A DNA stretch of 64,000 nt from Betaproteobacteria bacterium (lineage in GTDB: Bacteria > Pseudomonadota > Gammaproteobacteria > Burkholderiales > Rhodocyclaceae). The position numbers and the translations under genes were made by a program. How positions within the stretch are numbered: position 1 is the stretch's first letter; the number at the start of each line of letters is the position of its first letter. Shown piece after piece: positions 3,456 through 62,000 of this stretch. The notes under the pieces are model-generated. The model searched no databases, was not told the origin of the DNA, and worked only from the letters and a program-made list of their open reading frames with translations. The stretch lies in contig JAGVUA010000151.1 in NCBI GenBank assembly GCA_019136545.1, positions 20,134 to 84,133 of the forward strand, given 5' to 3'.

Positions 3456-4585
3456 TCGATTCTCACCTTCGCAAAACCGCCGCCAGGGGTACGGAAATTG
3501 GTGGTCTGCCCCTGCCACAGACGCGCGGCCACCAACTGGACGCGACCGGCGTAGGCATAGCAGCGCACGTCCACCTTGAGCTCGACATGCCGCTCCTCGC
3601 CGTCCCCGCCGTCGCCATCGCCGAACAACAACTCCATCTCCACCGTCGACGGCGGCACCAACGCCTGGGCCACGTAGTTTCCGGCCAGCACCTCGTCGAA
3701 CACCCGCCGGGTCATCTTGTCGCCGCGATAAGCGGCCTTCGAGCCATAACCGTTGGCCGGCTTGAAGAACAAGGTCTTGCGCCGGCTCCAATAGGCTTCG
3801 GCATCGTCCGGCGCCACGAGTTCCGTTTTCGGCACCGCGGCGGCCAGCACTGCCCGCGTCGGGGCATCGACGCCCCATGCCGCCAGCAAGGCGTCGTCGG
3901 ACAGCAGCGCCAGGTTGCGCTTGTCGGCATACAGGGCATGTCCGCGCGGATGCGGCGTCAGGACCACGGCGTCATCGAGGTAGGCCTGCCGCAAGGCGGC
4001 GTTGGCGGGCATCGTCAGCGCAAAGTCGGTCAAGCGGTTGTAAACGAGATCGAGACGGCGCTGGCCATGCCACAACCCGCCGTCGCGGAACGCCAGCTCA
4101 TCGGGCGCGCAGATCACCGCGTCGATGCCATGCCGCCTGAACAATGCCTGAAACATCAGAAACTCGGGATACAGGTACTGCGACTCGGGCGCCTCATCGA
4201 CGATGGCCAGGGTACGCAGCTCGCGCGCGCACTCCGAACGGAACATCGCGACGTATTCCGCTTCCAGCGCATGGCCGGGAACCTGAACGGCGGCCAGCAG
4301 CCCACCGCCGGTGTTGGTGTTGATCTCGATGAGCTTGGGGCCGTCCGGCGTGACATGAAAATCGTAGCCGTAGAAAACGCCGGGATTGGACGGGACGTGG
4401 TGCGCGATCTCGGGCGCCCACGCCAGCGCGCGCGCTTGGTAGGCAGGCATCGCCACCACCCGCTCGACGGCGGCGACCAGCGCGGTCATGCTCGCCGCAT
4501 CGCCACGGCTGACTTTCACCGTGGCGGGGGAAAACAGATGCGGACGGTCGGCAAGGAGCTGGTCCAGCGAAGGCGGTTCGATCAT
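3452..4585 (-). CDS. Uncharacterised ATP-grasp-like protein, apparently circularly permuted
   Basis: This protein has 377 residues and no signal or membrane segment. Visible ATP-grasp features are a Mg-binding-type IEINTNTGGG at ~86-94, a nucleotide-binding-type lysine and loop FFKPANGYGSKAAYRGDK at ~273-290, a VAQALVPP strand, and KVDVRCYAY at ~337-345. In ordinary ATP-grasp enzymes the lysine loop precedes the E-x-N motif; here the order is reversed, as in circularly permuted members. Such enzymes ligate a carboxylate to an amine or similar group using ATP; the substrate is unknown. The start at 4585 (MIEPPSL) lies 10 bases after the yoaA stop, and the end overlaps mobB. The operon suggests, but does not show, a link to Mo-cofactor or stress functions. 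A copy of the dispersed repeat encodes KVSRGDA at its N-terminus. Confidence 0.7.
   Translation of the reverse strand: MIEPPSLDQLLADRPHLFSPATVKVSRGDAASMTALVAAVERVVAMPAYQARALAWAPEIAHHVPSNPGVFYGYDFHVTPDGPKLIEINTNTGGGLLAAVQVPGHALEAEYVAMFRSECARELRTLAIVDEAPESQYLYPEFLMFQALFRRHGIDAVICAPDELAFRDGGLWHGQRRLDLVYNRLTDFALTMPANAALRQAYLDDAVVLTPHPRGHALYADKRNLALLSDDALLAAWGVDAPTRAVLAAAVPKTELVAPDDAEAYWSRRKTLFFKPANGYGSKAAYRGDKMTRRVFDEVLAGNYVAQALVPPSTVEMELLFGDGDGGDGEERHVELKVDVRCYAYAGRVQLVAARLWQGQTTNFRTPGGGFAKVRIE
4502..4517 (-). repeat. Dispersed element, copy 1
   Basis: The minus strand reads GAAAGTCAGCCGTGGC, followed by GATGCGGCG. It lies inside the ATP-grasp gene and is translated as KVSRGDA. Confidence 0.7.
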
Positions 4586-4595
4586 GTCGGCGAGT

Positions 4596-6590: not shown

Positions 6591-6655
6591 TCTAAGTTAG
6601 ATCGCCATGACGATCTTTCGCGGCAACAACGCCCACCGCCTTCAGCGAGCCGGCA

Positions 6656-13238: not shown

Positions 13239-14146
13239 CCAGCCGCGCGGCGTTCCTGCGCCGCGAGCCAGGCGCTGCTGCGGCCGCCGACCGGGTGGCC
13301 GACCAATTCCCCGGCGATGGCCGCCGCGCGGCGCAAGCGACCGACATCGACCCCGGTGTGGTAACCGCATTGCTCCAGCATCAGCACCAGATCTTCCGTC
13401 GCCAGGTTGCCGGCGGCGCCAGGAGCGAACGGACAGCCGCCGAGACCGCCGATGCTGGCATCGAACTTCCGCACGCCCTGCTCCAGCGCCGCCCAGGCAT
13501 TGGCGATCGCCATCGCCCGCGTGTCGTGGAAGTGCGCCGACACCGGCGTGCCGCGCCACGCGGCCATGCAGCGGCGAAACAACGCGGCTACCGCCGAAGG
13601 CGCCGCCGCGCCGATGGTGTCGGCCACCACGATCTCGCCGGCGCCGGCCTCGAGCATCCTCTCCCCCAGCGCCATGACCCGCTCCGCCGGCGTCGGGCCT
13701 TCGAAGGGGCATTCGAAGGCGACGGCCAGATACGCCTTGGTCCTGATGCCCAAGGCTCGCGCGGATTTCAGGGTTTCCACGCAAACGTCCACCGCCTGGT
13801 CCAGGCCGAGATTGATGTTCTTTCGATTCATGGTCTCGGTCGCCGACAGCACCAGCGCCACCTCGCCGACGCCCGCCGCCGCAGCGCGCTCCAGACCGCG
13901 GGCATTCGGCACCAGGGCGCTGTACGCCACCGTCGAACGCGCCGGCAAGCGCGGGAAGAGCACATCGGCGTCGGCCATTTGCGGCACGGCCTTGGGCGAC
14001 ACGAAACTGGTCGCCTCGATGGAGCGCAAGCCGGCGTCGACCAGCGCATCGATCAATCGCAGCTTGCCGGCGAGATCCACCGCGACCCGCTGATTCTGCA
14101 GGCCGTCGCGTGGCCCCACTTCGTTGACGGCGACAAAGTCAGTCAT
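13235..14146 (-). CDS. Hydroxymethylglutaryl-CoA lyase-like protein
   Basis: This DRE-TIM barrel lyase has 303 residues. Key family segments are EVGPRDGLQNQ (catalytic Arg-Asp at 13-14), FVSPKAVPQMADAD, NINLG, SAHFHDTRAMA (metal-binding His) and GGLGGCPFAPGAAGN with the mobile-loop cysteine. True HMG-CoA lyases split HMG-CoA into acetyl-CoA and acetoacetate; relatives cleave other 3-hydroxy-3-methyl acyl-CoAs. Here it probably performs the C-C cleavage of a CoA-activated intermediate made by its operon partners. It starts four bases after the hydantoinase B stop and overlaps the hydrolase gene. A dispersed-repeat copy spans its start codon. Confidence 0.88.
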   Translation of the reverse strand: MTDFVAVNEVGPRDGLQNQRVAVDLAGKLRLIDALVDAGLRSIEATSFVSPKAVPQMADADVLFPRLPARSTVAYSALVPNARGLERAAAAGVGEVALVLSATETMNRKNINLGLDQAVDVCVETLKSARALGIRTKAYLAVAFECPFEGPTPAERVMALGERMLEAGAGEIVVADTIGAAAPSAVAALFRRCMAAWRGTPVSAHFHDTRAMAIANAWAALEQGVRKFDASIGGLGGCPFAPGAAGNLATEDLVLMLEQCGYHTGVDVGRLRRAAAIAGELVGHPVGGRSSAWLAAQERRAAG

Positions 14147-14158
14147 GGCGCTACGCCG
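14133..14158 (+). repeat. Dispersed element, copy 2
   Basis: The plus strand reads ACAAAGTCAGTCATGGCG followed by CTACGCCG. It spans the start codon of the HMG-CoA lyase-like gene, the 4-base gap and the hydantoinase B stop, antisense to both genes. Confidence 0.6.
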
Positions 14159-22869: not shown

Positions 22870-23982
22870 CTAGTCGCCTTTCATCCGCCGGTAGGCCTCC
22901 TGGACCTCCCGGCGGAGCCTCACCAGTTCCGCCTTCGGGCGGCCGGCCTTTTCCGCTTCGTCGAGCTGGCGCATCTTTTCGGTCAGCTCGCCGAGCCGGG
23001 ATTCCTGATAGTCCCAATCCATGCGCGCCGGGGTGGCGGTCACCACTTCGGCACGCTCGCCGCCGCCCGAACGGCTGGCGGTGATCATCAGCGCCTTGCC
23101 ACGGCTGACTTTGGCCCCCGCAAGACCCGCCTTGTCGGCCGGCTTGGCTTCCCGCCGGAACTTGTCGATGGCGCCCATCAGCGCCTGGCGCAGGGCTTCG
23201 GTCGGTTGTCCGGCGGCTTCCGCCTCGCGCAGCTGCTTCAGCAAACGGGTGATCTCGGAAGGCGCCGGCACCGACTTTCTGGGCGGGACGTACCGTTCCG
23301 GGGGCGCCTTGACGGCTTCGGCAAATTCCTCGGGCGGCGACACCAGGCTGGCAATGCGCAGATTGCCGTTGCGCATGGCCCAGGAAAAAGCGGTATCGCC
23401 ACGATCGTTCTTCAAGCGCGTGTCGGCGCCCGCCGCGACCAGCACCCGGGCCATGTCCTCGCGCCCTTCCCGCGCCGCCATCATCAGCACGGTCGCGTCG
23501 TTCGGCGCCCGGGCGTTGATGTCGGCACCGCGCGCCATCAGCAGCCGGGCGACCGCATCGTGACCGGCGAACACGGCATAATGCAGCGCGCTCCAGGCCC
23601 GGCCGGCACGGCTGACGCTGGCGCCGTGGTCGAGCAACCAGCGCACCGACTCGATCTGGCCGCGCCAGGCGGCCAGTTGCAAGGCTTGCTCGCCGTGCCG
23701 ATTGACATGGTGGATGTCGGCGCCGCGCGACAGGAAAAGCTCCATCATGGCAATGTTGCCTTCCCAGGCGCCGATCATCAGTCCGCTGCCGATGCGATCG
23801 GCCTCGGCGTCGGGAGGCAAACCCTCGTCCAGCCAGCCGCGCGCGGCCTCGACCTTGCCCAACTCGACCGCCACGCCAAAGGCGACAGGATCGGGCAAGG
23901 CTGCCCAGGCCGGCGCCGCCGCACCGGCGGCCAGCGTCGCCGACCACATTCCGATCATCAACGTCCGCTTCAAATCACGCAT
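22870..23982 (-). CDS. Secreted ankyrin-repeat protein
   Basis: This protein has 370 residues. A signal peptide (1-27, cleavage after PAWA) is followed by about five ankyrin repeats (~30-215; for example GEQALQLAAWRGQIESVRWLLDHGA and SALHYAVFAGHDAVARLLMARGADINA). The C-terminal half is charged and helical, with coiled-coil-like Lys/Glu/Arg stretches ending in EAYRRMKGD. A periplasmic protein-protein interaction role is likely; no enzymatic motif is seen. It diverges from the TonB-like gene with only 25 bases between, so the promoters must overlap. It carries one dispersed-repeat copy (AKVSRGKA). Confidence 0.8.
   Translation of the reverse strand: MRDLKRTLMIGMWSATLAAGAAAPAWAALPDPVAFGVAVELGKVEAARGWLDEGLPPDAEADRIGSGLMIGAWEGNIAMMELFLSRGADIHHVNRHGEQALQLAAWRGQIESVRWLLDHGASVSRAGRAWSALHYAVFAGHDAVARLLMARGADINARAPNDATVLMMAAREGREDMARVLVAAGADTRLKNDRGDTAFSWAMRNGNLRIASLVSPPEEFAEAVKAPPERYVPPRKSVPAPSEITRLLKQLREAEAAGQPTEALRQALMGAIDKFRREAKPADKAGLAGAKVSRGKALMITASRSGGGERAEVVTATPARMDWDYQESRLGELTEKMRQLDEAEKAGRPKAELVRLRREVQEAYRRMKGD
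23098..23114 (-). repeat. Dispersed element, copy 3
   Basis: The minus strand reads CCAAAGTCAGCCGTGGC. Inside the ankyrin gene, it is translated as AKVSRGK. Confidence 0.6.
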
Positions 23983-24007: not shown

Positions 24008-24526
24008 ATGCCGTCCCGCCGTCTGTTGTTCGCTTATGTCGCCTCCTTGTTCCTGCACGGACTGCTGCTGGGCGGCGGCGCGCTGTTCGGCCCGCGCCAG
24101 GTCTTGCCGCCAGCGCCGGGGGCGACGCCGGCGCTCCTCGAGGCGCGCTTATCGATACCCGCCGATACCGTGCTCAAGGACACGCTGGCCGCGGCCGACA
24201 CGCCGGGGACGACGGCGCCGCCGCCCTCGCCGCGAACTTCGCCCACCGGGGCCGCCGGCCGAAAGTCAGTGGCGGCGGCACGCCGCCAGCTTGCCGAGCA
24301 TCTCTATTACCCGCCCGAAGCGGTCGCGCTGGGCCTGGAAGGCGAAGTCAGGCTACTGCTGACGCTGGCGCCGGACGGCGGGGTCATCGATGCCACAGTC
24401 GCCGCCAGCAGCGGCCACGCCCTTCTCGACCAGGCGGCGGTACGCGCGGCCCGCGCGATGGGGCGCCTGGTCGGCGCCGATCGGCGCGAGGTGATCCTGC
24501 CCGTGACCTTCCGTTTGCGTCCCTGA
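24008..24526 (+). CDS. TonB C-terminal-domain protein
   Basis: This TonB-like energy-transducing protein has 172 residues. It has a short cytoplasmic N-terminus, one membrane helix (~7-28, LLFAYVASLFLHGLLLGGGAL) and a Pro/Ala linker (~60-85). The compact TonB C-terminal domain (~90-172) includes YYPPEAVALGLEGEVRLLLTLAPDGGV and a final VTFRL strand. It is shorter than classical TonB (~240) and has no exbBD beside it. The start at 24008 places the membrane helix correctly. A copy of the dispersed repeat encodes the RKSVAAARR stretch at the linker-domain boundary. Confidence 0.85.
   Translation: MPSRRLLFAYVASLFLHGLLLGGGALFGPRQVLPPAPGATPALLEARLSIPADTVLKDTLAAADTPGTTAPPPSPRTSPTGAAGRKSVAAARRQLAEHLYYPPEAVALGLEGEVRLLLTLAPDGGVIDATVAASSGHALLDQAAVRAARAMGRLVGADRREVILPVTFRLRP
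24261..24285 (+). repeat. Dispersed element, copy 4
   Basis: The plus strand reads GAAAGTCAGTGGCGGCG followed by GCACGCCG. It is inside the tonB-like gene, in a third reading frame relative to other copies (RKSVAAARR). Confidence 0.65.
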
Positions 24527-26428: not shown

Positions 26429-28468
26429 ATGCCGACGATCGCCACGATTCCCCTGCAAGGTCCGCTGTTGCGCGGATCGCGACGCCCCCGGGTAGCCTTG
26501 GTCGGCCGCCGCCGGACCGGCAAAAGCAGCATTTTCCAGGCCGCCTCGAGCCCCGCCGTCCATCATGAGCGCCTCGCCGGCGTGGGCGGCGCTTACCAGG
26601 AGTGCCTGGTCGACGTCGGCCTCGACCAGATTTCGCTGGTCGACCTGCCCGACATCGAAACCCTGCATCACCTGCGCGAACACGACCGGGTCGTGCTGAT
26701 GTACCTGCTGTGGGGCGACCGCTGGCCGGCAATCGCCCGTCACGAGTCGGAACAGCCGTCCGCCGCCTTCCCGGCGCCCGACGTGCTGATCCAGGTGGCG
26801 GATGCCACCATGCTCGAGCGCGACCTTGAACTCGCGATGGAACTTTCCCTGCTGGGCCGGCCGATGGTGATCGCCCTCAACCGCATGGACGAAGCGCGCG
26901 CAAAAGGCATTTTCATCAACATCCGGGCGCTGAGCGAAAAACTGGGCGTACCGGTGGTGCCCACGGTTGCCCACATGGGCAAGGGCATCCGGCCGCTGTT
27001 CGACGCCGCCGTCCAGGCCGCCCGCCAGCGCACCTGCCCGCTGCCGCAACCGCCCAGCCCGCATCTGGTCGCCAGCCTGCGGCGCTTGAACGAAATCACC
27101 GTCCGCCCGGAAATCGCCGAGGCGTTCCGGGTACCCCATCCGCTGCTGCTGTGCCAGCTGGCGGAAAACGACGACTACTTCCTGCACGAGCTGGGCAGCC
27201 ATTTTCCCGATTTGCTGCCGGCGGTGGCGGCCGCGCGCACGGCCGCGGAAGCGCAGTTGCCGCGCCCGCTGTCGGACGAATTGCACGCCGACCGCCATCA
27301 TCGCGCCGCCGTTCTGCTCGAAAGCGTCAGCAGCCCGACCGGGCCGACCGAAGCGGGCTGGAAGCGCTGGCTCGACGAACTGTTCCTGCACCCGCGCTGG
27401 GGCCTGCTCGGCAGCCTGGCGGTGTTCGCCCTGGTGCTGTTCTTCACCTTCGAGGTCAGCGCTTTCCTCGACGGCCTGACTTCGGCCCGCCTGGTCGAGT
27501 GGAGTCAGTCGTGGCAACCCGCCTCGACCGCCGGCATCGTCGCCCACGCCGTCGTCGATGGCCTGATCGGCCTCGTCGGCATCGTCGTGCCTTACATGAT
27601 CCCGCTGGTCGTCCTGCTGGTCGCGCTCGAACAGGCCGGCATCATGCATCGGGTCGCTTTCGTGGTCGATCGCGGCTTCCACCACATCGGCCTGCACGGC
27701 GGCATCGCCGTCCCTTTCCTGATCGGCCTGGGCTGCAATGTGCCAGCCATCTCCGCCGCCGCGGCCACCGCCAGCGGCCGCGACCGCGTGATCGCGGCGC
27801 TGCTGATCACTTTCGTGCCCTGCTCGGCGCGCTCGGCCATTATCCTGGCGCTGGGCGGCAAGTACCTTGGCGGCTTCGGCGTCTTCGCCATCTTCATGTT
27901 GACGCTGGTAGTCATCGCCCTCCTCGGCAAGATCCTCGCCAGCCGCTACGCCGAAGCCGCCCCCGGCATGATCCAGGAAATCCCCCCCTACGCGGTGCCT
28001 TCCTGGCGGGCGATCTGGCGCGACACCTGGGCGCGCACCAGCGATATCGTCACCATCGTCACGCCGCTGCTGGTGGTCGGCAGCGTCGTGCTGGCGCTGC
28101 TCCAGCACTGGGGCGCCGATGCCTTCATCAACGCCGCCCTCGCGCCCATCACCAGTTGGTGGCTCGGCCTGCCGGTCGTGCTCGGCGTGCCTATCCTGTT
28201 CGGCGTATTGCGCAAGGAGCTTTCGCTGCTGATGATCTACCAGGCGCTGGGCAGCCAGGAGATCGGAACCATGCTCGACTGGGTGCAAATCGTCACTTTT
28301 CTGATCTTCCTCACCTTCTACGTTCCCTGCGTCTCGACCTTCGCCGTCATGCTGCGCGTTCTGGGCCGCCGCGAGGCCTTCTTTTCGGTCGCCCTGTCGG
28401 TGGGCGTGGCGCTGGCCATGGCCGGCGTCATCCGCTTGCTGCTGTCGATACTCGATCTGCTCGGCTGA
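26429..28468 (+). CDS. Divergent FeoB-family ferrous iron transporter
   Basis: This protein has 679 residues: an N-terminal G-domain (~18-200) followed by FeoB membrane helices (~320-670). Gate motifs are present: GLGCNVPAISAAAA and TFVPCSARSAIILALGG. The GTPase signatures are atypical. G1 is GRRRTGKSS rather than GNPNxGKS, the G3 region is DLPD where DLPG is usual, and G4 is NRMD. No feoA or feoC lies nearby. It is probably an Fe(II) transporter or a relative for another divalent metal. Its 3' end overlaps the GIY-YIG gene on the other strand by 151 bases, and one dispersed-repeat copy lies inside (WSQSWQPA). Confidence 0.85.
   Translation: MPTIATIPLQGPLLRGSRRPRVALVGRRRTGKSSIFQAASSPAVHHERLAGVGGAYQECLVDVGLDQISLVDLPDIETLHHLREHDRVVLMYLLWGDRWPAIARHESEQPSAAFPAPDVLIQVADATMLERDLELAMELSLLGRPMVIALNRMDEARAKGIFINIRALSEKLGVPVVPTVAHMGKGIRPLFDAAVQAARQRTCPLPQPPSPHLVASLRRLNEITVRPEIAEAFRVPHPLLLCQLAENDDYFLHELGSHFPDLLPAVAAARTAAEAQLPRPLSDELHADRHHRAAVLLESVSSPTGPTEAGWKRWLDELFLHPRWGLLGSLAVFALVLFFTFEVSAFLDGLTSARLVEWSQSWQPASTAGIVAHAVVDGLIGLVGIVVPYMIPLVVLLVALEQAGIMHRVAFVVDRGFHHIGLHGGIAVPFLIGLGCNVPAISAAAATASGRDRVIAALLITFVPCSARSAIILALGGKYLGGFGVFAIFMLTLVVIALLGKILASRYAEAAPGMIQEIPPYAVPSWRAIWRDTWARTSDIVTIVTPLLVVGSVVLALLQHWGADAFINAALAPITSWWLGLPVVLGVPILFGVLRKELSLLMIYQALGSQEIGTMLDWVQIVTFLIFLTFYVPCVSTFAVMLRVLGRREAFFSVALSVGVALAMAGVIRLLLSILDLLG
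27501..27523 (+). repeat. Dispersed element, copy 5
   Basis: GGAGTCAGTCGTGGCAAC followed by CCGCC, inside feoB, read as WSQSWQPA. It is a weaker match in its first base and its tail. Confidence 0.5.
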
Positions 28469-28908
28469 GCCGTACCCGCCGGACCGGCGGCGGTCCGCCG
28501 CGACTGACTTTCGTCGCCCAGGTAGCGCAAGTGGCTGCCGCAACCCATGCGGCAGTCCGACGCCCCGAACCCGGCGACCAGCACCCGGCCGCCGGCGCAT
28601 CGGTTAAGGACGCACTCCGCCAGCCGGGAACGCCGCACGCCGACCACCTCGACGCCGGGCGCCGACAGCAGCCAGTCGATGTGCCAATGCATCGCCTTGT
28701 CGCGGCGCAAATGCCGGGCAATACGCGCTTCGAGATTGCGCCGGGCGCTGCCGGTGTAGACGTAGCGCCCGGCCGGAAAGCTGAATTCCCCCAGGCGGCC
28801 GATCCGGACGCGCACGGCGCGCGCGACCCGCAGCGTCAATTGATAGGTGCCCGGGTTTTCCCGCTTAACCCGGGGCGCGATTTCGATTATATTGGCAACC
28901 GGATTCAC
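28318..28908 (-). CDS. GIY-YIG/DUF123-family protein with extended C-terminus
   Basis: This protein has 196 residues. The first ~130 match the short DUF123 (GIY-YIG-like nuclease) family: GTYQLTLRVARAVRVRIGRLGEFSFPAGRYVYTGSARRNLEARIARHLRRDKAMHWHIDWLL and CRMGCGSHL. Family members usually end soon after the HL motif. Here the frame continues ~60 residues of Ser/Arg/Thr-rich sequence, beginning exactly at a dispersed-repeat copy (ESQSRRTAA) and running antisense into the feoB 3' end. The extension may be spurious coding produced when the repeat removed the native stop. The cellular role of DUF123 proteins is unsettled. Confidence 0.7.
   Translation of the reverse strand: MNPVANIIEIAPRVKRENPGTYQLTLRVARAVRVRIGRLGEFSFPAGRYVYTGSARRNLEARIARHLRRDKAMHWHIDWLLSAPGVEVVGVRRSRLAECVLNRCAGGRVLVAGFGASDCRMGCGSHLRYLGDESQSRRTAAGPAGTAQPSRSSIDSSKRMTPAMASATPTDRATEKKASRRPRTRSMTAKVETQGT
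28488..28512 (-). repeat. Dispersed element, copy 6
   Basis: The minus strand reads GAAAGTCAGTCGCGGCG followed by GACCGCCG. It lies just past the feoB stop (plus strand) and at the point where the GIY-YIG protein departs from its family length. Confidence 0.65.
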
Positions 28909-30270: not shown

Positions 30271-30347
30271 TGGCGGAGTGGACGGGACTCGAACCCGCGA
30301 CCCCCGGCGTGACAGGCCGGTATTCTAACCAACTGAACTACCACTCC
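30271..30347 (-). tRNA. tRNA-Asp (GTC anticodon)
   Basis: This is a 77-nt cloverleaf on the minus strand beginning GGAGTGGTAGTTCAGTTGG. The anticodon loop CCTGTCACG gives GTC (Asp). The T-arm contains GGTTCGAACC, and the acceptor stem GGAGTGG/CCACTCC is followed by an encoded CCA. It has its own promoter at 30378-30405 and the terminator at 30224-30258. Confidence 0.97.
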
Positions 30348-34071: not shown

Positions 34072-35349
34072 TCAAACCAGGCCGTTCATCAACTGGACCA
34101 TCACCGTGTCGCCGGCACTGACTTTGTCGCGCGCCGGTTCGAGCACGATCAGACAGTCCGCCTTCGCCATCGAACTCAACACGCCCGAGCCCTGGGCGCC
34201 GGTCGGCCGCACGCACCATTCGCCGTGCTCCTGGAACAGGATGCCGCGCTGGAATTCGGTGCGACCCCGGCCCTTCTTCATCGCCTCGACGCAGCGCGCC
34301 GGGAAAAGCGGAAACTCGGGCACCGGATCGATGCCCATCAGCTTGAGCAGCGCCGGCCGCACGAACTGGTAGAACGTGATCATCACCGCCACCGGATTGC
34401 CGGGCAGGCCGAACAGCCAAGTGCCGGCACCACCTGCACCATCCGAGCGGATGCGGCCGAAAGCCATCGGTCGGCCCGGCTTCATGGCGATTTTCCAGAA
34501 CGCCACCTCGCCGAGCTTGGCCATCATCTGCTTGATGAAATCCGCCTCGCCCACCGACACGCCGCCGCTGGTGATCACCGCGTCGGCGCAGGCCGAGGCC
34601 TCCTTGAAAGCCAGCTCCAGGGCATCGGGCCGGTCCTTGACCACGCCCATGTCGATCACCTCGCAGCCCAGCCGCGTCAGCATGCCCCAGAGCGTATAGC
34701 GGTTGCTGTCATACACCGCCCCCGGCGACAGCGGCGTGCCGATCGAGCAGAGTTCGTCGCCGGTGGAAAAGATCGCCACGCGCACCCGGCGGCGCACCGA
34801 CACTTCGGCGACGCCCAGCGATGCGATGATGCCGATCTCGGCCGGACGCAGCAGCGTGCCGGCATGGATGGCCGCCTCGCCCGCCTTGAGGTCCTCGCCG
34901 GCGCGGCGCAGGTTCTGCTCGGCGCGCTGCCCCGGCGGCACGATCACCTCGTCGCCCTCGGCGCGCGCCACTTCCTGGATCACCACGCAGTCGGCGCCGG
35001 CCGGCAGCACGGCGCCGGTCATGATGCGCAGCGCCTCGCCACGGCCGAGCTTGCCGTCGAAAGCCCGGCCGGCCAAGGCCGTGCCGACGTTCTTCAACCG
35101 CGTCTCGCCCGCCGTCGCCAGATCGGCATGGCGCACCGCCCAGCCGTCCATGGCCGAGTTGTCGTGGGCCGGCACATCGACCGGCGAAACGACATCCTCC
35201 GCCAGCACGCGCCCGAGCGCCTGGCGCACGAACACGCGCTCGTGTACGCGCACCGGCGCCATCATGTCCAGCACCACGCGCCGAGCGCGATCCACCGACA
35301 GCGAATTGGGGTCGTAGTCGTCCAGGCAGGAAAAGTTCAGCGAAGTCAT
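34072..35349 (-). CDS. moeA: Molybdopterin molybdenumtransferase MoeA (copy 2)
   Basis: This is a second MoeA paralog of 425 residues. Motifs are DNSAMDGWAVRHAD, IMTGAVLPAGADCVVIQE, STGDEL, SGGVSVGEADFIKQ, KPGRPMAFG and GLPGNPVAVMITF. It has a longer N-terminus (MTSLNFSCLDDYDPNSLSV) and an insertion near RSDGAGGAGTW compared with copy 1 at 1756-2955. Paralogs of this type may serve particular molybdo- or tungsto-enzymes, but that cannot be read from sequence. It is divergent from the terB-ravA-viaA genes (151 bases between) and lies upstream of fadN. One dispersed-repeat copy encodes KVSAGDT near its C-terminus. Confidence 0.93.
   Translation of the reverse strand: MTSLNFSCLDDYDPNSLSVDRARRVVLDMMAPVRVHERVFVRQALGRVLAEDVVSPVDVPAHDNSAMDGWAVRHADLATAGETRLKNVGTALAGRAFDGKLGRGEALRIMTGAVLPAGADCVVIQEVARAEGDEVIVPPGQRAEQNLRRAGEDLKAGEAAIHAGTLLRPAEIGIIASLGVAEVSVRRRVRVAIFSTGDELCSIGTPLSPGAVYDSNRYTLWGMLTRLGCEVIDMGVVKDRPDALELAFKEASACADAVITSGGVSVGEADFIKQMMAKLGEVAFWKIAMKPGRPMAFGRIRSDGAGGAGTWLFGLPGNPVAVMITFYQFVRPALLKLMGIDPVPEFPLFPARCVEAMKKGRGRTEFQRGILFQEHGEWCVRPTGAQGSGVLSSMAKADCLIVLEPARDKVSAGDTVMVQLMNGLV
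34105..34128 (-). repeat. Dispersed element, copy 7
   Basis: The minus strand reads ACAAAGTCAGTGCCGGCG followed by ACACG. Inside moeA copy 2, it is read as KVSAGDT. Confidence 0.5.
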
Positions 35350-35986: not shown

Positions 35987-37402
35987 ATGGCCATGACCCG
36001 GTTCGAGCGAATCAACGGCCTGATCGACGCGCTGAGCGCCGGCCTCGTCGAACGCCGCCGGCACGTGCAGCTGGCCCTGCTGGCGGCGCTGGCCGGCGAA
36101 CACACGCTGCTGATCGGCCCGCCGGGCACGGCCAAGAGCGAGCTGTCGCGCCGCCTGCACACCGCGTTCCGCGACGCCCGCTACTTCGAGCGGCTGCTGA
36201 CGCGCTTTTCGGTGCCCGAGGAACTGTTCGGGCCGTTGTCGATCCGGGCGCTCGAAGAGGACCGCTACGAGCGGCAGACCGCCGGCTTCCTGCCCGAAGC
36301 CTCGATCGCCTTCATCGACGAGGTGTTCAAGGCCAACAGCGCCATCCTCAATGCCCTGCTGACGCTGCTCAACGAGCGCGAGTTCGACAATGGCGCCGGC
36401 CGGCAGCGCTGCCCGCTGATCAGCGTCATCGGCGCCACCAACGCCGTGCCCGAGGATGAAGTCGGCGAAGCCTTCTTCGACCGCTTCCTGATGCGCTTGC
36501 CGGTGGCGCCGGTCAGCGCGGCCGGCTTCGAGGCCTTGCTGAAAGTCAGCCGTGGCGACACGCCGATAAGGCCCGAGCTTGCGCTCGACGACCACGACCT
36601 CGCCGCCCTCGCCGAGGCCGCCGGGCGGGTCGACCTGCCGGCGTCCGTCACGGCGCTGCTCGCCGAGTTGCGGCGGCACTGCGCCGAACAGCAGATCATC
36701 GTCTCGGATCGCCGCTGGGTGAAAATCGTCCGGCTGCTGCGCGTCGCCGCCGCGGCCGCCGACCGCGCCTCGCTGTCGCCCTGGGATCTCCTGCTGCTGC
36801 CGCGGTGCACGGCGCCCGACGCCGAGCGCCAAGCGGCCCTTTTCGACTGGCTGACCGCGCGCCTCGGCGTGCGCGAGGCGTTCTCGCCGGCGCTGCTGAC
36901 GCGCGTCGTCGAGGCTTTCGAGGCGCAGCTCGACCTCGAGCTGAAAGCCAACGACCTCGATTACGACGACAGCGGGCGGCTGAAATTTTCGGCAAGTGCG
37001 CAGGCCGCCGATATCGCCGCAAGCATCGGCGATGCCAAGGGCGGCTCGGCGGCGCCGCGCATGACGTACACGCGCCAGCGCCGCTACGGCACGCGCCATG
37101 TCGAAGCGCGCGTTGGCCAGATTGACGACGCGCTCGCCCGCATCGGCGGCTATGCCGAAGAAATTGCCCAATCCCGCCGCGATCTCGACGTCTACCGTGC
37201 GGGTAATCTCTGGGGCGACGAGGCGCTGCTCGCGCGCGTCGCCGCCAATCTGGCCGGCACCGCCGCCGCCATCGGCGCCTTGGCCGATCGACTGGGTTCG
37301 ACGCGCGAGGGCTTTCTCGCCCTGCCCCGGCTCGACCAGGACGACGCCCGCAACGACGCGGTTCCCGCGCCGGTGGCGCACGAAGGCCTCGCCGCCGCAT
37401 GA
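35987..37402 (+). CDS. ravA: MoxR-family AAA+ ATPase RavA
   Basis: This ATPase has 471 residues. The AAA+ core (~20-300) has Walker A LLIGPPGTAKSE, Walker B IAFIDEVFKANSAIL, the sensor-1 region VIGATNAVPEDE and FFDRFLMRL. A C-terminal discoidal/LARA-like region (~330-471) follows. RavA partners with the VWA protein ViaA; in E. coli the pair affects respiratory complexes (Nuo, Frd), lipid interaction and aminoglycoside sensitivity. The ViaA start overlaps its stop by four bases. One dispersed-repeat copy encodes KVSRGDTP. E. coli RavA is of similar length (~498). Confidence 0.88.
   Translation: MAMTRFERINGLIDALSAGLVERRRHVQLALLAALAGEHTLLIGPPGTAKSELSRRLHTAFRDARYFERLLTRFSVPEELFGPLSIRALEEDRYERQTAGFLPEASIAFIDEVFKANSAILNALLTLLNEREFDNGAGRQRCPLISVIGATNAVPEDEVGEAFFDRFLMRLPVAPVSAAGFEALLKVSRGDTPIRPELALDDHDLAALAEAAGRVDLPASVTALLAELRRHCAEQQIIVSDRRWVKIVRLLRVAAAAADRASLSPWDLLLLPRCTAPDAERQAALFDWLTARLGVREAFSPALLTRVVEAFEAQLDLELKANDLDYDDSGRLKFSASAQAADIAASIGDAKGGSAAPRMTYTRQRRYGTRHVEARVGQIDDALARIGGYAEEIAQSRRDLDVYRAGNLWGDEALLARVAANLAGTAAAIGALADRLGSTREGFLALPRLDQDDARNDAVPAPVAHEGLAAA
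36541..36565 (+). repeat. Dispersed element, copy 8 (best match to consensus)
   Basis: GAAAGTCAGCCGTGGCG followed by ACACGCCG, inside ravA, read as KVSRGDTP. Confidence 0.75.
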
Positions 37403-38979
37403 ACGCGCTGCCCCGGCCTCGGCTGTTCGAGCAGCGCGAAGCGCGGCTGTCGGCGCTGAACGAACTGCCGCGCCAGCACTGGCTCGGCGGCATGGTGCAT
37501 TCGCAGGGCACGCTGGAACCGCGCCTGACCGCGCTGGCCGAGCTGCGCCGACACCTGTGCGCCGGCGAACTGCCGCCGGCCGGCACCTGGCGCTGGCCGC
37601 CCGCCGCGCCGGCCGCCGCCCTCGCCGAGGCCATCGCGGCGCTCAGCCTGGCGCGCTATTGCGCGGGCCGGCAGGAACTGTCCGACACGGTGGTGATGAG
37701 CATCCTGTTCCACCTCGACTTCATCGTCGATTACCGGGATCGCGGCGCCACGGAAACAGAAGCGATCGCCAGCGCCGTCGCGGCGTTCAGCGAAGATTGG
37801 CAGGAGCGTCGCGGGCAGCTCGACGAATTGATCGAAGTCTTCGGCATGCTGCCCGAGGACGGCAAGAACACGAACTGGGATCAGTTGCGCGGGCTGCTGC
37901 GCGCGTCCGGCTGGCAGGCGGTGCTGCGCATCCGCCGTCTGCTGGAACACCTGCCGGAGCTGGCGAAGCTGATCCGCGGGCTCGGCCGCGCCCGCCCGAC
38001 CGACGAGGACGATCCGAGCCGCCAGCAGATCGTCGAAGCCATGGCACAAGCCACCGCGCAGCTGCCCTACCGTCGCAACGTACGCATTCCCGACATGCCG
38101 GGCGAAACGCGCGGCGTGCGCCGCTCGGACCGCATCGCGCGCATGCTGCCGGCGGAGGCCATGCTGCTGGGGCATCGGCGCCTGCGCCTGGTCTGGCACG
38201 CCCGCCGCGCCGAGCGCACCCTGCTCTCCTACGAGGACGACGACCGCATGCAGGAGACGCGCCTGATGCCCGAACCGGTATCGCGGCCGGTGCCGGCTCC
38301 GCAGGCCGGCAAGCGCGCCGAGCTGGGGCCGATGCTGGTCTGCGTCGACACCTCGGGCTCGATGGCCGGCGGCGCCGAAGCCGTGGCCAAGGCCGTCGTG
38401 CTGGAGGCGATGCGCACGGCGCACGCCCAGCGGCGCGCCTGCCACGTCTTCGCCTTCGGCGGGCCCGACGAGGTGATCGACATGGCACTGGACGTGGATG
38501 CCGGCGGCATCGAACGCCTCGCCAGCTTTTTGGGACAGGCGTTTCGCGGCGGCACCGACATCTGCGGTCCGCTGGACAAGGCGCTGGCGCGCCTCGAAAG
38601 TCAGTCGTGGCGATACGCCGACCTGCTGATCGCCTCCGACGGCGAGTTCGGCGCCACGCCGGCCATGGCGGCCAGGCTGGACGAAGCGAAGCGCGCGCTG
38701 GGCCTGCGCGTGCAGGGCGTGCTGGTCGGCGACCGCGAAACGCTCGGCTTCATGCAGATCGCCGACGACATCCTGCCGGTGCGCGACTGGCGCCGGTACG
38801 GCGAGGCCGACGAGCGCGCGGCCGATCCGCCCATCCATAGCCACCGCCTGACGGCGCTCTACTTTCCCGGCGCGCTGCGCACCCAGGACAACCTCGACGC
38901 CACCGTATCGCCCGCCGAGGCCGCCGCCACGGTGCGCAGCGGCCGCAACCCAGCCGCAACCCCGCCTGATCCGCCATGA
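37399..38979 (+). CDS. viaA: VWA-domain protein ViaA
   Basis: This protein has 526 residues. The N-terminal ~300 are helical, and the von Willebrand A domain spans ~310-480 with an intact metal-binding site: MLVCVDTSGSMAGG, the threonine in FRGGTDI and LLIASDGEFG. It is the usual partner of RavA and is coupled to it by an ATGA overlap. The next gene also overlaps by four bases, so the three proteins are made together. One dispersed-repeat copy encodes ESQSWRYA between MIDAS elements. Confidence 0.87.
   Translation: MNALPRPRLFEQREARLSALNELPRQHWLGGMVHSQGTLEPRLTALAELRRHLCAGELPPAGTWRWPPAAPAAALAEAIAALSLARYCAGRQELSDTVVMSILFHLDFIVDYRDRGATETEAIASAVAAFSEDWQERRGQLDELIEVFGMLPEDGKNTNWDQLRGLLRASGWQAVLRIRRLLEHLPELAKLIRGLGRARPTDEDDPSRQQIVEAMAQATAQLPYRRNVRIPDMPGETRGVRRSDRIARMLPAEAMLLGHRRLRLVWHARRAERTLLSYEDDDRMQETRLMPEPVSRPVPAPQAGKRAELGPMLVCVDTSGSMAGGAEAVAKAVVLEAMRTAHAQRRACHVFAFGGPDEVIDMALDVDAGGIERLASFLGQAFRGGTDICGPLDKALARLESQSWRYADLLIASDGEFGATPAMAARLDEAKRALGLRVQGVLVGDRETLGFMQIADDILPVRDWRRYGEADERAADPPIHSHRLTALYFPGALRTQDNLDATVSPAEAAATVRSGRNPAATPPDPP
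38596..38620 (+). repeat. Dispersed element, copy 9
   Basis: GAAAGTCAGTCGTGGCG followed by ATACGCCG, inside viaA, read in a different frame (ESQSWRYA) from the ravA copy. Confidence 0.75.
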
Positions 38980-41889: not shown

Positions 41890-44195
41890 CGGGTTTCTCC
41901 TCGAGGTTCGTCAAGCAGCCAGCGATGGCACAGCATCACCAGGGCCGGCAGCAGCAGCAGGGTCAGCAGCGCCGAGATCAGCATCATCGACGCGATGAAG
42001 GCGCCGACGACGACGTAGGGCGTCAGCGGCGCGGCCATCATGACCGAGAAGGCCGCGGCGAACAGCACGGCGTTGCGGACGATGCCCTTGCCGGGACGCG
42101 CCGCCGTCCAGGCCAGGCTGGCCGCCGGCGTCTCGCCACGACTGACTTCCGCCCGGCGCTGGCGGAAGCGGCTGACGAAATGAATCGCGAAGTCCACCGC
42201 CATGCCGAGCGAAAGCGTGCTCATCACCGACAGCGGCATGTCGAAGTCCTTGCCGACGAAGCCGACCACCCCGTAGATGAACAGGATGGTGAACAGCAGC
42301 GGCACGTAGGCCACCAGCGCCCATTTGAACGAGCGGAAGTCCAGCGCCAGAATGACGAACACCACGACCAGCGCCAGGCTGAAGCCGAACACCAGGTCGC
42401 CCAGCACTTCCTCGTTCCAGACCAGGTTGAAATAGGCAATGCCGGCCGGCTTCGCCGTCACCGGCAGGGGGTTCGCCGCGTGGTAGGCGTCCACGGCGGC
42501 GGCCACCTGGCGCATGGCGTCGGCGTCCCAGGTCTTCATCTGCACCCAGAGGTTGGCCTTGGCGAAGCTCGGATCCACCACGTTGTCCAGATCCGCCGGC
42601 TTGGCCGACATGTTGAACAGGAACAGGTACTGGCCGATGGTGTCCGCCGTCGCCGGCACCACGTCGAAACTGGCGTCGTCGTCGTGCAGGACCCGGTTGA
42701 TGCGCTTGACGTAATCGGCGACGGAAAACGTCTTGCCCACCACCGGCAGTGTTTCGAGCCGGCGTTGCAGACCCTCGATCCAGCGCATGGCATCCGGCCG
42801 CTTCATGAACTCCGCCTTGCCTGCATCCACCACCACGTAACCGAGGGAAGTGCCGCCGAGCGCCTGGTTCATCGCCGTGTCGGCGATCCGTATCTCGCTG
42901 TCGTTCTTGAACCGCGCGACCAGGTTGTTATTGACATGGATTCTTGTCGTGCCCCAGATCGAGACCGCCACCAGGGCCAGGGCCACGGCCACCGTCAGCG
43001 CCGGGCGCGCCGCGCCGAAAGCGCCCAGGCCGCCGAGCAGGCGCGCCGTGCGGTCCTGCGCCGCGTCCTCCGCCTTGCCGGCAAGCTTGTCCTCGCGCAG
43101 GAAAGTCAGCACCGCGGGAATGAAGCTGAAGGACAGCAGGCGCAAGACCACCGTGCCGAAAGCGATCAGGCCGCCGAACACCTTCACCGGAACGATGTTC
43201 ATGAACAGCAGCACCGCGAATCCCGCGGCGGTGGCGAGCGCCGTGAAGCGCACCGGCCGGCTCACCGCCGCCATGGTCGCGCGGATCGCCGCCCGCTTGT
43301 CGCCCTGTTCGCGGTACCGAAAATAGAACTCGTTGAAAATGTGGATGCTGTCGGTAGCAATGGCCATGAGGAATACCGGCGCCATGGAACTCATGATGTG
43401 CACGGGAAAGCCCAGGCCGATCAACAGACCCATGCTCCATAGGATCGCCACCATCGAGACGCCCATCATGGCCGCCGACAGCGCCAGGTTGCGGAACATG
43501 AACTGGATCGCCGCGAACATGATGCCGCCGGCGATGGGCGAGAAAATCGCCATCAGCTTGAACATCTCGGCGCCGAAGGTATCGCGCGCCACCGGATCGC
43601 CGGCGACGTAATAGCGTTCCGGCCCATGTTCCTGCGCGACGATGTTCCGGATGCGGCCGGCGATCTCCGCTCCGTTGGCGCCTTTCTCCAGGGGCACGTA
43701 GATGGCGGTGGTCCTGCCGTCCTGCGAGATGATGCGATCGACGAACAGCGGATTGCCAAGCAGCGCGCGCTTCAGCGCATCGACCTCGCCATCGCTTTGG
43801 GGCGCCGCCGGCATCAACGGCCCGACCTTGAGCATGCCGTCCTCGGCGGTGACGTTGGTGATGGTGGTGAATCCGTTCACATCGCGGCTGGCGACGCCCG
43901 GCAAGGCCAGTATCGCGTCGGTGAGGCGGGCAATGCGCCCCAGCGTGTCGCGATTGAGCACGCCCTGGTCGTTTGCCACGCCGACGACGATGGTGTCCTC
44001 GTACAGCGCGAAGGTCCTGTCCACCTCGTCGTTCCACACGCGCACGTCGGACGTTTCCGGCAGCATGTGCTTCGGATTGGTGTCGATCCGGATCTTCGGA
44101 AACTGGGCAAGGAACAGCAGGGTCAGCAGCCCGGTGAGCGCCAGTACCAGCCGGGGCCGCCGGAGGGAAAATTCGACCAATGAAAATTTCGTCAT
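41886..44195 (-). CDS. RND/MMPL-family transporter
   Basis: This inner-membrane exporter has 769 residues and twelve predicted helices in two RND halves: TM1 near 15-30 (LVLALTGLLTLLFLA), large periplasmic loops at ~45-200 and ~420-570. Sterol-sensing-type helix bundles include MAIATDSIHIFNEFYFRYRE and LGMAVDFAIHFVSRFRQRR, the charged GxxxDF/Y motifs of this family. Hopanoid, lipid or other hydrophobic exporters look similar. It is the first of three coupled genes and lies 73 bases after the DsrE gene. One dispersed repeat encodes EVSRGETP. Confidence 0.88.
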   Translation of the reverse strand: MTKFSLVEFSLRRPRLVLALTGLLTLLFLAQFPKIRIDTNPKHMLPETSDVRVWNDEVDRTFALYEDTIVVGVANDQGVLNRDTLGRIARLTDAILALPGVASRDVNGFTTITNVTAEDGMLKVGPLMPAAPQSDGEVDALKRALLGNPLFVDRIISQDGRTTAIYVPLEKGANGAEIAGRIRNIVAQEHGPERYYVAGDPVARDTFGAEMFKLMAIFSPIAGGIMFAAIQFMFRNLALSAAMMGVSMVAILWSMGLLIGLGFPVHIMSSMAPVFLMAIATDSIHIFNEFYFRYREQGDKRAAIRATMAAVSRPVRFTALATAAGFAVLLFMNIVPVKVFGGLIAFGTVVLRLLSFSFIPAVLTFLREDKLAGKAEDAAQDRTARLLGGLGAFGAARPALTVAVALALVAVSIWGTTRIHVNNNLVARFKNDSEIRIADTAMNQALGGTSLGYVVVDAGKAEFMKRPDAMRWIEGLQRRLETLPVVGKTFSVADYVKRINRVLHDDDASFDVVPATADTIGQYLFLFNMSAKPADLDNVVDPSFAKANLWVQMKTWDADAMRQVAAAVDAYHAANPLPVTAKPAGIAYFNLVWNEEVLGDLVFGFSLALVVVFVILALDFRSFKWALVAYVPLLFTILFIYGVVGFVGKDFDMPLSVMSTLSLGMAVDFAIHFVSRFRQRRAEVSRGETPAASLAWTAARPGKGIVRNAVLFAAAFSVMMAAPLTPYVVVGAFIASMMLISALLTLLLLPALVMLCHRWLLDEPRGETR
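42125..42150 (-). repeat. Dispersed element, copy 10
   Basis: The minus strand reads GGAAGTCAGTCGTGGCG followed by AGACGCCG. It is inside the RND gene, read as EVSRGETP. Confidence 0.65.
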
Positions 44196-45491: not shown

Positions 45492-45516
45492 GAAAGTCAG
45501 CGGCGGCGGGTCGGCG
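45492..45516 (+). repeat. Dispersed element, copy 11
   Basis: GAAAGTCAGCGGCGGCG followed by GGTCGGCG. It spans the stop and last codons of infA (antisense) and the intergenic space after the ArsR-rhodanese gene. Confidence 0.6.
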
Positions 45517-45757
45517 CTGCCGCCACGGCGCCACGGCCTTCGATGTGGCGGAAAGTAATGCGCCCCTTGGAGAGATCGTAGGGCGAAAGTTCCAGCGATA
45601 CCTTGTCGCCGGCAAGGATGCGAATGTGGTGCTTGCGCATTTTTCCGGCGCTGTAGGCCACGAGGTCATGGCCGTTGTCCAGGGTAACGCGGTAGCGCGA
45701 ATCGGGCAGCACTTCCATCACCACCCCGTTCATTTCGATGAGTTCTTCCTTGGCCAA
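45497..45757 (-). CDS. infA: Translation initiation factor IF-1
   Basis: This OB-fold protein has 86 residues: [53 protein letters not shown]. It binds the 30S A-site and helps IF-2 and IF-3. It is longer than the 72-residue E. coli protein because of a VAAAPTRRR tail, as in the second IF-1 type of many betaproteobacteria; another infA probably exists in the ribosomal-protein operon. It lies downstream of the cold-shock gene and its terminator. Confidence 0.93.
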
Positions 45758-49017: not shown

Positions 49018-49042
49018 GAAAGTCAGCCGCGGCGGCACGCCG
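49018..49042 (+). repeat. Dispersed element, copy 12 (intergenic)
   Basis: GAAAGTCAGCCGCGGCG followed by GCACGCCG, in the non-coding space between the hemerythrin and iorA starts. It shows that copies are not confined to genes. Confidence 0.75.
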
Positions 49043-54951: not shown

Positions 54952-59033
<4,082 letters not shown>

Positions 59034-59037
<4 letters not shown>

Positions 59038-62000
59038 GCGGCTTCCCTCTCAGTCATCCGCAACGCTTCCTCGATGTCGACTTCCACCACGCGCGACACC
59101 CCCTGCTCCTGCATGGTAACGCCGATCAGGTGCTGGGCCATTTCCATGGCGATCTTGTTGTGGGTGATGAAGACGAACTGCGTCTGCGCCGACATGCGCT
59201 TGACCATGCCGCAGAAACGCTCGGTGTTGCTGTCGTCGAGCGGCGCATCGACTTCGTCGAGCATGCAGAACGGCGCCGGATTGAGCTGGAACATGGCGAA
59301 CACCAGCGCGATGGCGGTCAACGCCTTCTCGCCGCCCGACAGCAGGTGGATGGTCGAATTCTTCTTGCCCGGCGGCTGTGCCATGATCTGGATGCCGGCG
59401 TCGAGAATTTCCTCGCCGGTAAGCAGCAGCTTCGCTTCGCCGCCGCCGAACAGCTGCGGGAACAGTTCGCCGAAGTGGCGGGTCACGGTGTCGTAGGTTT
59501 CCTGCAATTGCTCGCGCGTTTCGCGGTCGATGCGGCGGATCGCGTCTTCCAGCGTGTCGATGGCGGTCCGGAGATCGTCGGACTGGGCGTCGAGGTAGCC
59601 CTTGCGCTCGCGCGCCACGGTCAGTTCATCGAGCGCCGCCAGATTGACCGGGCCGAGCGCCTCGATTTCCGCGCCCAGCCGGGCGATGTCGCCGGCCAGC
59701 GCCGACAGCTCGGCTTCCTGTTCCGGCGCCGCGATGCCGGCTTCGAGCAGCCGCTGCTGGTATTGCTCGGCATTGAGGTCGGCCGCCTGCTGCTTGAGCT
59801 TCCAGTCGTTGATCTTGTCGCGCGCCGGCTGCAGGCCCTGCTCCAGCTTCAGCCGCTGCTCTTCCAGCGTCCGCAGGTCGGCGGCCGCCGTTTCCAGCGT
59901 ATTGCGCCGTTCGGTCAGCAGGCCCTCGCGACCGGAACGCGCGTCGAGCGCCGACTGCAGTTGCTCGCCCAGCACGACGTCGCTGATGCCCGCCAGTTCC
60001 GCCGTCGCCGTGCCGGCATCGCCGGCGACGCGTTCCAGCTGCACGCGCGCCGTTTCTGTGGCGCGGGCGTTGTCCTCGAGCTTGGAACGGCATTCGCGCT
60101 CCGAAAAGCCGGCCTCCTGCGCTTCGCGCGCCAGCTGGTGTTCCAGCGCGCGCGCTTCGCGCAGCGCCGTATCCCGCTGGCGCTGGATGTCCAGCGCCTC
60201 CTCGACGCGGGCGCGCACCGCCGCCAACTGTTCGTGGCCGGCATTGGCTTCGCTTTCGGCGCGCGCCAGTTCGCCGCGCTCGCTTTCTTCGCCGCGCAGG
60301 ATGTCCTCGAGGTCGCGGGCGATCTGCCCGGCGCGCTCGTCATGGCGCGCCTGAATTTGCGCGAGCTTGAGCGCCTCGACATGCGCGCCGTGCAGCCGCT
60401 GCTGGAGGTCGTCCACCTGCCGGCGGGCGGCGTGCTGCGACGACTGACTTTCATCGAGCCGGCGTTCGGCCTCGCCCTGCGCCTCGCGGGCCGCCTCTTC
60501 CTCGGCCTCGCGCGCCTCGATGAGCGAGGACAGTTCTTCGATCTCGCGCTGGCGTTCGATGACTCCGTGCGTCTTGACGTCCGGCACGTAGAGCGTCAGC
60601 CCGCGCGGCGTCAGCCGATGCCCCTGGCGGCTGACCCAGCTGCCGCCGGCCGACAGCCGGTCGCCCAGGTCGTCGGCGCAGCGGACGCCGGCCAGCCATT
60701 CGTCGAGCACCGCCGACCAGCGGGCATCGTCGCAGCGCACCTTGGCCCGCAGGCTGTCGGGGCTGTCGGCAGCGCCGGCCGGCACCGCCGCGCCGTCGGC
60801 GAAAGCCAGCGCGAAAGTCAGCGGCGGCGGCGCGCCGAGCGCATCGCGGGCGATCCCCTGATCGGCGACCCGCGCCGACAGCCGCTCGCGCAGCACGGCT
60901 TCGACCGCCGTTTCCCAACCCGCATCGACCTGGATGCCGCGCCACAGCGGCTGGGCATCGGCCAGGCCGCGGGTCTTCAGCCAGTCGCCGATTTCGCCGC
61001 TCTGCTGGACGCGGCTCTGCAATTGCTGCAGGGCATCGCGGCGCGCGCGCGCCTCGGTGGCCTGCCGGTGCGCGCCGGCCAGGCGCTCGCGGGCCGCGCG
61101 CAAGGCGCCTTCCAGCCCCGGCAGCAAACCCTGAAGCTCGGCCAGCCGTTGCTGCTGGACCGCCAGCGCCGCTTCGGCGTGCGCTTCGGTTTCCTGCGCG
61201 GCGGCCAGCTGCACGGGATCGGGGGCCACCAGCGCGGCCTGCTCCTGCTCCAGCCGCTGGCGGCGGCTGGCGAAATTCTCGAGGGCGCGCAGCGCGTGAC
61301 CGCGATCGGCCTCGGCCAGCCGCAGGCCCTGTTCGGCTTCGTTGAGCAGGCGGCGCGCTTCGGCGACCTGGCTGCCGGCGGCCTGCACCTCGGCTTCGGC
61401 CTCGGGCAGCCGCGCCGCCGCCTCCTCGTGACGGGCCTGGGCGGTGGCCATGCGCTCGGCGGAGTTCTCCAGCAGCGACTGCCAGCGGAATTCCTCTTCC
61501 TCGACGCGCTTCTGCTCGCCGGCCCAATGGCTGCGCTCGACCTCCAGTTGGGCCAGCCGCGTTTCCAGCCGGGTGCGCGCGTCGCGCATGTGGTTGATCT
61601 CGGACTCCAGCCGCCTCACTTCGGCGTTGGCCGAGTACATCTCGGCCTGCGCGGCGTGCAGCGTATCGGAGGCGGCGAAATGGGCCTCGCGCGCATGCTC
61701 GACTTTCGCCTCGACCTCGCGCAGTTGCGCGGTCTCGGCCTCGACGCGGTTGACCGCCTTTTCGACCTCGCGGGCGAAGCGCTCGGCTTCCGCCTGCGCG
61801 TCGTTGCGCTTCTTCAACCAGAGCAGGTTCTGCCGGCGGCCCAGCTGGCCGTGCAGGTCGCGGTACTGGCGCGCCACTTCGGCCTGCGTTTCCAGGCGGC
61901 CGATCTGGCCGTCGAGCTCGTTGCGAATGTCGTCCACGCGCGCCAGGTTTTCCCTGGCGTCCTCGAGACGGTAGCCGGTCTCCTTGCGCCGCTCCTTGTA

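Follow-up and report, generated by a model that had tools for sequence, protein, structure and literature searches.

The 64,000-nucleotide stretch of betaproteobacterial DNA considered here (contig JAGVUA010000151.1, assembly GCA_019136545.1; hereafter the window) carries many copies of a dispersed 24-bp word, which recurs at several hundred places in the draft genome to which the window belongs (G000; 3.40 Mb, 162 contigs). Among the named recA matches listed, the nearest are Zoogloeaceae bacterium MAG-184 and Zoogloea ramigera (86%), and the host is accordingly presumed to be a betaproteobacterium of Rhodocyclaceae/Zoogloeaceae type. This element is probably a self-tag comparable to the DNA uptake sequences (DUS) of other bacteria, spread by transformation and recombination. 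The chances are about even that it represents a third, independently evolved uptake-signal system, belonging to Rhodocyclaceae-type betaproteobacteria and based on a long bipartite 24-bp word and a putative receptor. Among the sequence-level hallmarks that can be tested, abundance, occurrence on both strands, permissive placement, origin by substitution and dialects are all observed; even spacing and terminator pairs are observed in part. The receptor, the uptake preference and the drive are what we infer.

The sites of G000 give the consensus gAAAGTCAGCCGTGGCGrcACGCCG, in which a rigid 8-bp block, AAAGTCAG, is followed by a softer 10-bp middle and a conserved second block, ACGSCG. In 104 exact cores from 464 kb of G000, conservation spans positions -1/-2 to +23/+24 and stops abruptly at both ends. 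An iterated weight matrix retains 130 sites in this 464-kb sample at the level passed by five surrogate hits; 125 of them score at least 14, and no surrogate scores 16 or more. The motif contains 28.6 bits of information, against 12.8 bits needed for locating the sites. A sharp-edged 24-bp motif is also found in a second genus (G015, 27.8 bits). By eye, the single-copy consensus shows neither a palindrome nor a terminal repeat.

Using the weight model, 219 copies are found in 848 kb of G000 (258 per Mb), including 94 in 384 kb outside the training data. The sample was drawn from contigs with listed matches and exceeds the genome in copy density by 12-16% (25% of the bases with 28-29% of the exact copies, 89/320 and 121/420); corrected for this enrichment, the genome-wide estimate is about 770 copies. 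The block AAAGTCAG is the most over-represented 8-mer both in the 464-kb sample of G000 (104 vs 7.0 expected) and in G001 (53 vs 4.5); in G015 it comes second (60 vs 5.2), after AAGTCAGT (61 vs 3.0). The 219 copies of G000 comprise 84 in sense and 60 in antisense orientation within called genes and 75 outside them, the latter figure being an upper bound, as the home-made gene caller misses genes (77% of the DNA is called coding). Each of the six frames occurs (48/14/22 in sense, 13/6/41 in antisense), the least used in antisense being the one that puts TGA into the host gene. Copies are spaced more evenly than random in G000 (coefficient of variation, CV, 0.739 vs 0.924 +- 0.056; none of 2000 simulations as even), with 11 gaps shorter than 500 bp against 25.4 expected. 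Relative to the GC skew of the sampled stretches, orientation shows no bias in G000 (108 vs 111) or in G015 (41 vs 36). Copy density climbs with GC content (Spearman 0.40 and 0.65). This relation may reflect protein constraint, since a copy-free, low-GC 20-kb stretch of G015 (L047) is the rpoB-rpoC-EF-G region, an absence that fits placement where proteins tolerate the word. Published uptake sequences are reported to favour gene termini and, within genes, one orientation (PMC2346458).

The word is confined to a few genera and varies between them. The shorter pattern AAAGTCAGYC gives 420 hits in G000 against seven for the reversed control; among 398 other genomes sampled across the order, no excess like that of G000 was seen. 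More than 300 hits occur in 10 of 249 family genomes, confined to two genera. A dialect-free scan of 395 family genomes with the exact bipartite pattern AAAGTCAG-N10-ACGSCG finds at least 40 copies in 19 genomes of three genera, without any reversed-control hit in these 19, and at most five copies in 375; one further genome, of genus g11, has 20. Enrichment concerns four of the six genomes of the window's genus, g1 (320, 113, 212, and 241 exact copies), 14 of the 16 genomes of g11 (44 to 452 copies) and one of the two of g24 (G028, 71 copies). Near-empty species (G003, G005, G545, G478) are found inside the enriched genera, and a single genus spans 452, 176, 44, 20, and 4 exact copies, some assemblies being incomplete. 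The three genera use three dialects of one word: AAAGTCAGCCGTGGCGrcACGCCG in g1, aAAAGTCAGTCcC.gCGgcACGGCG in g11 and, roughly, AAAGTCAGcgCCGGCGrgACGGCG in G028 (22 cores, 400 kb). Between congeners, 12 of the G000 sites aligned in G001 are shared and 12 are not. The near-empty G005 retains seven sites scoring at least 14 in 296 kb, where column-permuted matrices give 0-3; five of these seven lie on two contigs (L206 C252, L207 C173) and could be imported DNA, contamination or remnants. A ComEC tree covering 13 genomes, which has open forks, places G545 among enriched g11 species; this suggests loss of the word, although the fork concerned is open. No excess is seen at 80 named recA loci, mostly from betaproteobacteria and gammaproteobacteria (44 AAAGTCAG vs 39 reversed; one weight-model hit in 1.31 Mb). 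Viral contigs contain no exact hit of the G000 dialect and six stretches with one to three copies each of the G015 dialect, which may be host DNA.

Could the word be a by-product of protein motifs or of codon usage? The 575 called genes of G000 contain 133 copies, against 28.2 after synonymous-codon shuffles (mean of 20) and 0.75 on average after 20 codon-order shuffles. The copies that survive synonymous shuffling, presumably where encoded peptides partly recreate the word, are what this explanation can account for; about 80% of the coding copies are lost, six frames are used, and 75 of the 219 copies lie outside called genes. Both types of shuffle thus rule out a protein motif or codon effect, to which we leave practically no probability: preservation concerns the DNA and not the protein. 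An earlier note on the window, arguing from independence of reading frame, had named a frequency no higher than in codon-preserving shuffles, or restriction to one protein motif, as grounds for giving up its view. Neither applies.

Being discrete, sharply bounded and highly uniform between copies, the word might also be a miniature mobile element that inserts in frame or otherwise. Repetitive extragenic palindromic (REP) elements, miniature inverted-repeat transposable elements (MITE) and Rickettsia palindromic elements (RPE) are short and dispersed and, like the word, may sit in frame inside genes; each of them is inserted as a unit and has either a palindromic structure or terminal repeats. 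Sites were compared with relatives using BLAST matches spanning the site (66 rows, of which 62 were kept, the four dropped largely repeating the same contigs). The element is shared in 24 rows and missing from the relative in 38, where identity is 0.59 at the site vs 0.74 in the flanks (Wilcoxon p = 2.6e-7); where the element is shared and the alignment ungapped (17 sites), identity over the 8-bp core amounts to 91%. Matches of this kind might stop at a 24-bp insertion and so conceal it; the comparison was therefore redone with a gap-tolerant aligner that also accepts matches interrupted close to the site, and insertions were simulated as a positive control by deleting 24 bases from the relative opposite windows near sites. 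Of 100 rows, 34 were dropped (flank identity < 0.6), 39 are unshared and 27 shared; rows between G000 and G001 in both directions partly duplicate pairs, and "unshared" includes near-copies (e.g., score 9.3). Of the 39 unshared sites, 27 face no gap in the relative, two face gaps of 12-13 bp and none faces a gap of 20 bp or more, whereas the simulated insertions gave gaps of at least 20 bp in 81 of 113 cases and of at least 12 bp in 101 of 113. The VWA-domain gene at window position 38597 is an example: its G001 orthologue has the same length and aligns without gaps, but lacks the word. Copies therefore arise by substitution, and insertion is disfavoured. The near-copies held by relatives, the lack of palindrome or terminal repeat in the consensus and the even, unclustered distribution in G000 also speak against a mobile or REP/RPE-like element, which is very improbable.

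An intracellular DNA-binding protein involved in nucleoid organisation, segregation, repair or recombination, with several hundred selected 24-bp sites, would fit the even spacing in G000, the high information content and the substitution origin. We consider it unlikely, though well short of negligible. Orientation shows no bias along the GC skew, congeners differ in their sites, and G005 and G545 do nearly without sites in genera where their relatives have many. Moreover, the information content lies far above what location demands, an excess that is, however, also found in known uptake sequences. To our knowledge, no intracellular factor of such a kind has been described. Recombination or replication-oriented signals, such as Chi, the FtsK-orienting polar sequences (KOPS) or the architecture-imparting sequences (AIMS), are short, and their orientation follows the replication origin and terminus. 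The word resembles them in being overabundant, dispersed and limited to few genera, but its strands are balanced in the sampled stretches of both genera; replication orientation was rejected on these counts, and only a slim chance remains for a signal of this type. That species of one genus range from many copies to almost none would also suit a mark unrelated to uptake, be it for restriction-modification, methylation or self/non-self recognition. The recognition sites of such systems tend to be short or strictly bipartite, without enrichment at 24 positions, which makes this alternative highly unlikely as well.

If the word is an uptake tag, a receptor at the cell surface or pilus tip, part of the machinery for natural transformation, would favour DNA with the 24-bp word, and word-bearing fragments would be taken up and recombined more often. 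Better-matching point-mutated versions would then spread via biased recombination, until one copy per 3-5 kb is present wherever genes tolerate it. Receptor and word drifting together would produce the genus dialects, and copies would decay where the preference is lost.

The two established systems allow a comparison. The DUS of Neisseriaceae, GCCGTCTGAA and its dialects, is bound by the minor pilin ComP; it occurs in large copy number, within and between genes, with inverted terminator pairs and lineage dialects (PMC3630211). The present word is likewise multi-copy, found in and between genes, with dialects and, in G015, inverted pairs. On the other strand its rigid part reads CTGACTTT and contains CTG, the DUS core, three common letters that may be due to chance. 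It differs in being 24 bp long and bipartite, where the DUS has 10-12 bp, in its otherwise unrelated sequence and in its bacterial family; in addition, the ComP-family pilin tested here does not track it. The uptake signal sequence (USS) of Pasteurellaceae, AAGTGCGGT with flanking AT tracts, has a rigid core and weaker blocks, is reported to arise by point mutation, forms terminator pairs and is taken up through type IV pili, its receptor being unproven (PMC7811141, PMC12616744). The word is similarly an extended motif with a rigid core, a substitution origin and, in G015, terminator-like pairs. Its sequence is unrelated to the USS; its ACGSCG block, 10 bp past the core, is conserved nearly to the level of the core and is G+C-rich instead of an AT tract; and it has hundreds of copies, against 2,206 in H. 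influenzae Rd. As to the pairs, G015 has two in which copies stand tail to tail, with starts 22 bp apart and the last two bases overlapping. One forms a perfect and the other a nearly perfect stem, followed by TTTT (-52.4 and -35.6 kcal/mol), and these hairpins look terminator-like. Inverted uptake sequences forming terminators are known in Neisseriaceae and Pasteurellaceae (PMC3630211, PMC13020248). Membership of the DUS or USS class is not claimed here, because no receptor tracking the word was found.

Several observations weigh against a role in uptake. Taken alone, the spacing in G015 is without significance (CV 0.83 vs 0.90 +- 0.08, in a smaller sample), and the evenness of published uptake sequences is itself under dispute (PMC1939737). 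Tight inverted pairs are scarce: 400 kb of G015 contain only two, and 848 kb of G000 contain none. Uptake sequences are usually quoted as 9-12 nt long (PMC12616744), compared with 24 conserved positions here. ComEC is also encoded by the near-empty G005, G545, and G478, and pilins are present in the near-empty G005 and G545. The ComP-type (PF16732) pilin is 70% identical to that of the wordless G009, but 52-53% identical to those of the word-bearing G001 and G002. G629 has 324 copies, while its best MshL match reaches 88.7 bits, against a cut-off of 250.2. In sum, no receptor co-varying with the word was found among the two candidates considered (PilE/PF16732 and the mannose-sensitive haemagglutinin, MSHA, type pilus).

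As to the transformation machinery, a search of 15 genomes finds ComEC in 13 (not in the draft assemblies G003 and G004), and G000 has a putative fimT-pilV-pilW-pilX-pilE-like minor pilin cluster. However, presence of the machinery is non-discriminating, because ComEC and pilins also occur in near-empty species. ComEC branches are longer in the near-empty G005, G478, and G545 (0.50, 0.47, and 0.22) than in enriched relatives, perhaps through relaxed constraint on uptake, perhaps just because these sequences evolve faster. Presence of PF16732 is uninformative as a receptor marker (55 of 61 genomes carry it), and in G015 the matches of this pilin, among those listed, are weak and partial. PilE identity to G000 was striking in a few genomes (G468 71%, G545 50%, G005 48%) and failed as a signal over 36. 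An MSHA-type pilus correlated with the word in five genomes, then failed in G629. An MSHA-type pilin gene of G000 (L016:15557-16102, contig C55) contains one element copy in frame (15644-15667), read EVSGGRAPN; this gene sits in a large operon putatively named MSHA-like. Several genomes of the family have two or more MshL-type secretins above the cut-off (in G000, C33:8817-9668 and C55:24857-25786), which may mean two MSHA-like pilus systems.

Sequence-specific DNA uptake is described in a 2025 paper as known only from Neisseriaceae and Pasteurellaceae (PMC12616744), and no description of the present element was found in the open-licence literature on uptake sequences, transformation and Rhodocyclales repeats, or among the listed papers matching the word's letters, none of which deals with bacterial repeats. 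Should the word be an uptake tag, a third family would possess one, self-tags would evolve repeatedly, including in environmental bacteria, and an independent system for receptor discovery would be at hand. Species of one genus with full, partial and near-zero complements would allow gain, dialect change and loss of specificity to be followed, so that the open question of the origin and decay of uptake sequences would become directly testable. If the word does not serve uptake, a 24-bp word held at several hundred places via substitution equally demands explanation.

Within the window, the weight model (score >= 14) gives 17 copies, eight on the plus and nine on the minus strand; a further row at 21448, with score 11.5, is excluded:

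1786..1809, minus strand: degenerate copy, score 15.6, in a MoeA-like gene (1756-2955), read TVSPGDTV
4493..4516, minus strand: copy, score 33.0, outside called genes
14135..14158, plus strand: copy, score 31.7, overlapping the start of the HMGL-like gene 13235-14146 (minus strand)
23089..23112, minus strand: copy, score 32.8, in an ankyrin-repeat protein gene
24262..24285, plus strand: copy, score 35.2, outside called genes, ahead of a GGDEF/EAL gene
27501..27524, plus strand: copy with the degenerate core GGAGTCAG, score 18.8, in a FeoB-like gene
28488..28511, minus strand: copy, score 32.2, directly past the FeoB-like gene
32608..32631, minus strand: copy, score 28.5, in a 3-hydroxyacyl-CoA dehydrogenase gene
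34102..34125, minus strand: copy, score 26.3, in moeA (34072-35349)
36542..36565, plus strand: consensus copy, score 40.2, in a MoxR-type ATPase gene, read KVSRGDTP
38597..38620, plus strand: copy, score 39.0, in the VWA-domain gene, read ESQSWRYA
42126..42149, minus strand: copy, score 33.4, in an MMPL transporter gene, read EVSRGETP
45493..45516, plus strand: copy, score 26.9, past the gene 44777-45451, overlapping the weakly scored frame 45497-45757 (minus strand)
49019..49042, plus strand: copy, score 39.1, outside called genes
56069..56092, minus strand: copy, score 20.3, outside called genes
60428..60451, minus strand: copy, score 34.1, in an smc-like gene, read ESQSSQHA
60814..60837, plus strand: copy, score 34.0, antisense within the smc-like gene that holds copy 60428

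The earlier note had counted at least 14 copies, and its 14 positions all carry the element, eight on the plus and six on the minus strand as it said; the copies at 1786, 32608, and 56069 are additional. Its count of about 14 for AAAGTCAG is borne out (14), but the two expected by chance were too many: dinucleotide shuffles give 0.72, with a maximum of four in 100 shuffles. That the 8-mer nearly always bears the same tail applies to 12 of the 14 matches, those at 8715 and 43102 being without it, and two of the noted copies have degenerate cores (at 27501, as listed, and GAAGTCAG at 42134). The 16-mer core with up to three mismatches occurs 18 times in the window, against 4.23 expected. The peptide KVSRGDTP, given as occurring five times, is found exactly only once, at 36542; elsewhere in the window's called genes, frame 0 reads TVSPGDTV, KVSRGKAL, KVSAGDTV, and EVSRGETP. 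The genome-wide count that the note had proposed supports it, with 660 matches of AAAGTCAGYSGYGGCG at up to two mismatches vs 44 for the reversed control. Its other proposed checks, of strand bias and of orthologues for insertions or point-mutated sites, are answered by the strand balance against the GC skew of sampled stretches and by the predominantly gap-free unshared sites given above. Among the options it had offered, an uptake-like sequence fits best, a protein-binding site keeps a smaller chance, and insertion is disfavoured.

Some copies can be followed in relatives. The orthologue of the gene carrying the 1786 copy has AAAGTCAG intact in G001; the 32608 copy is common to G002 and missing in the aligned sequence of G005; the 34102 copy has a near-copy in G004 and none in G001. 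The copy at 45493..45516 would read as a stop within the weakly scored called frame that it overlaps. The window contains two moeA-like genes (1756-2955 and 34072-35349), each with one copy of the element. Finally, an 80-bp match covering a tRNA gene at 30274-30347 (minus strand) is 100% identical in G005, where other matches to this stretch of the window are mostly below 80%; this identity is likely to reflect ordinary tRNA conservation.

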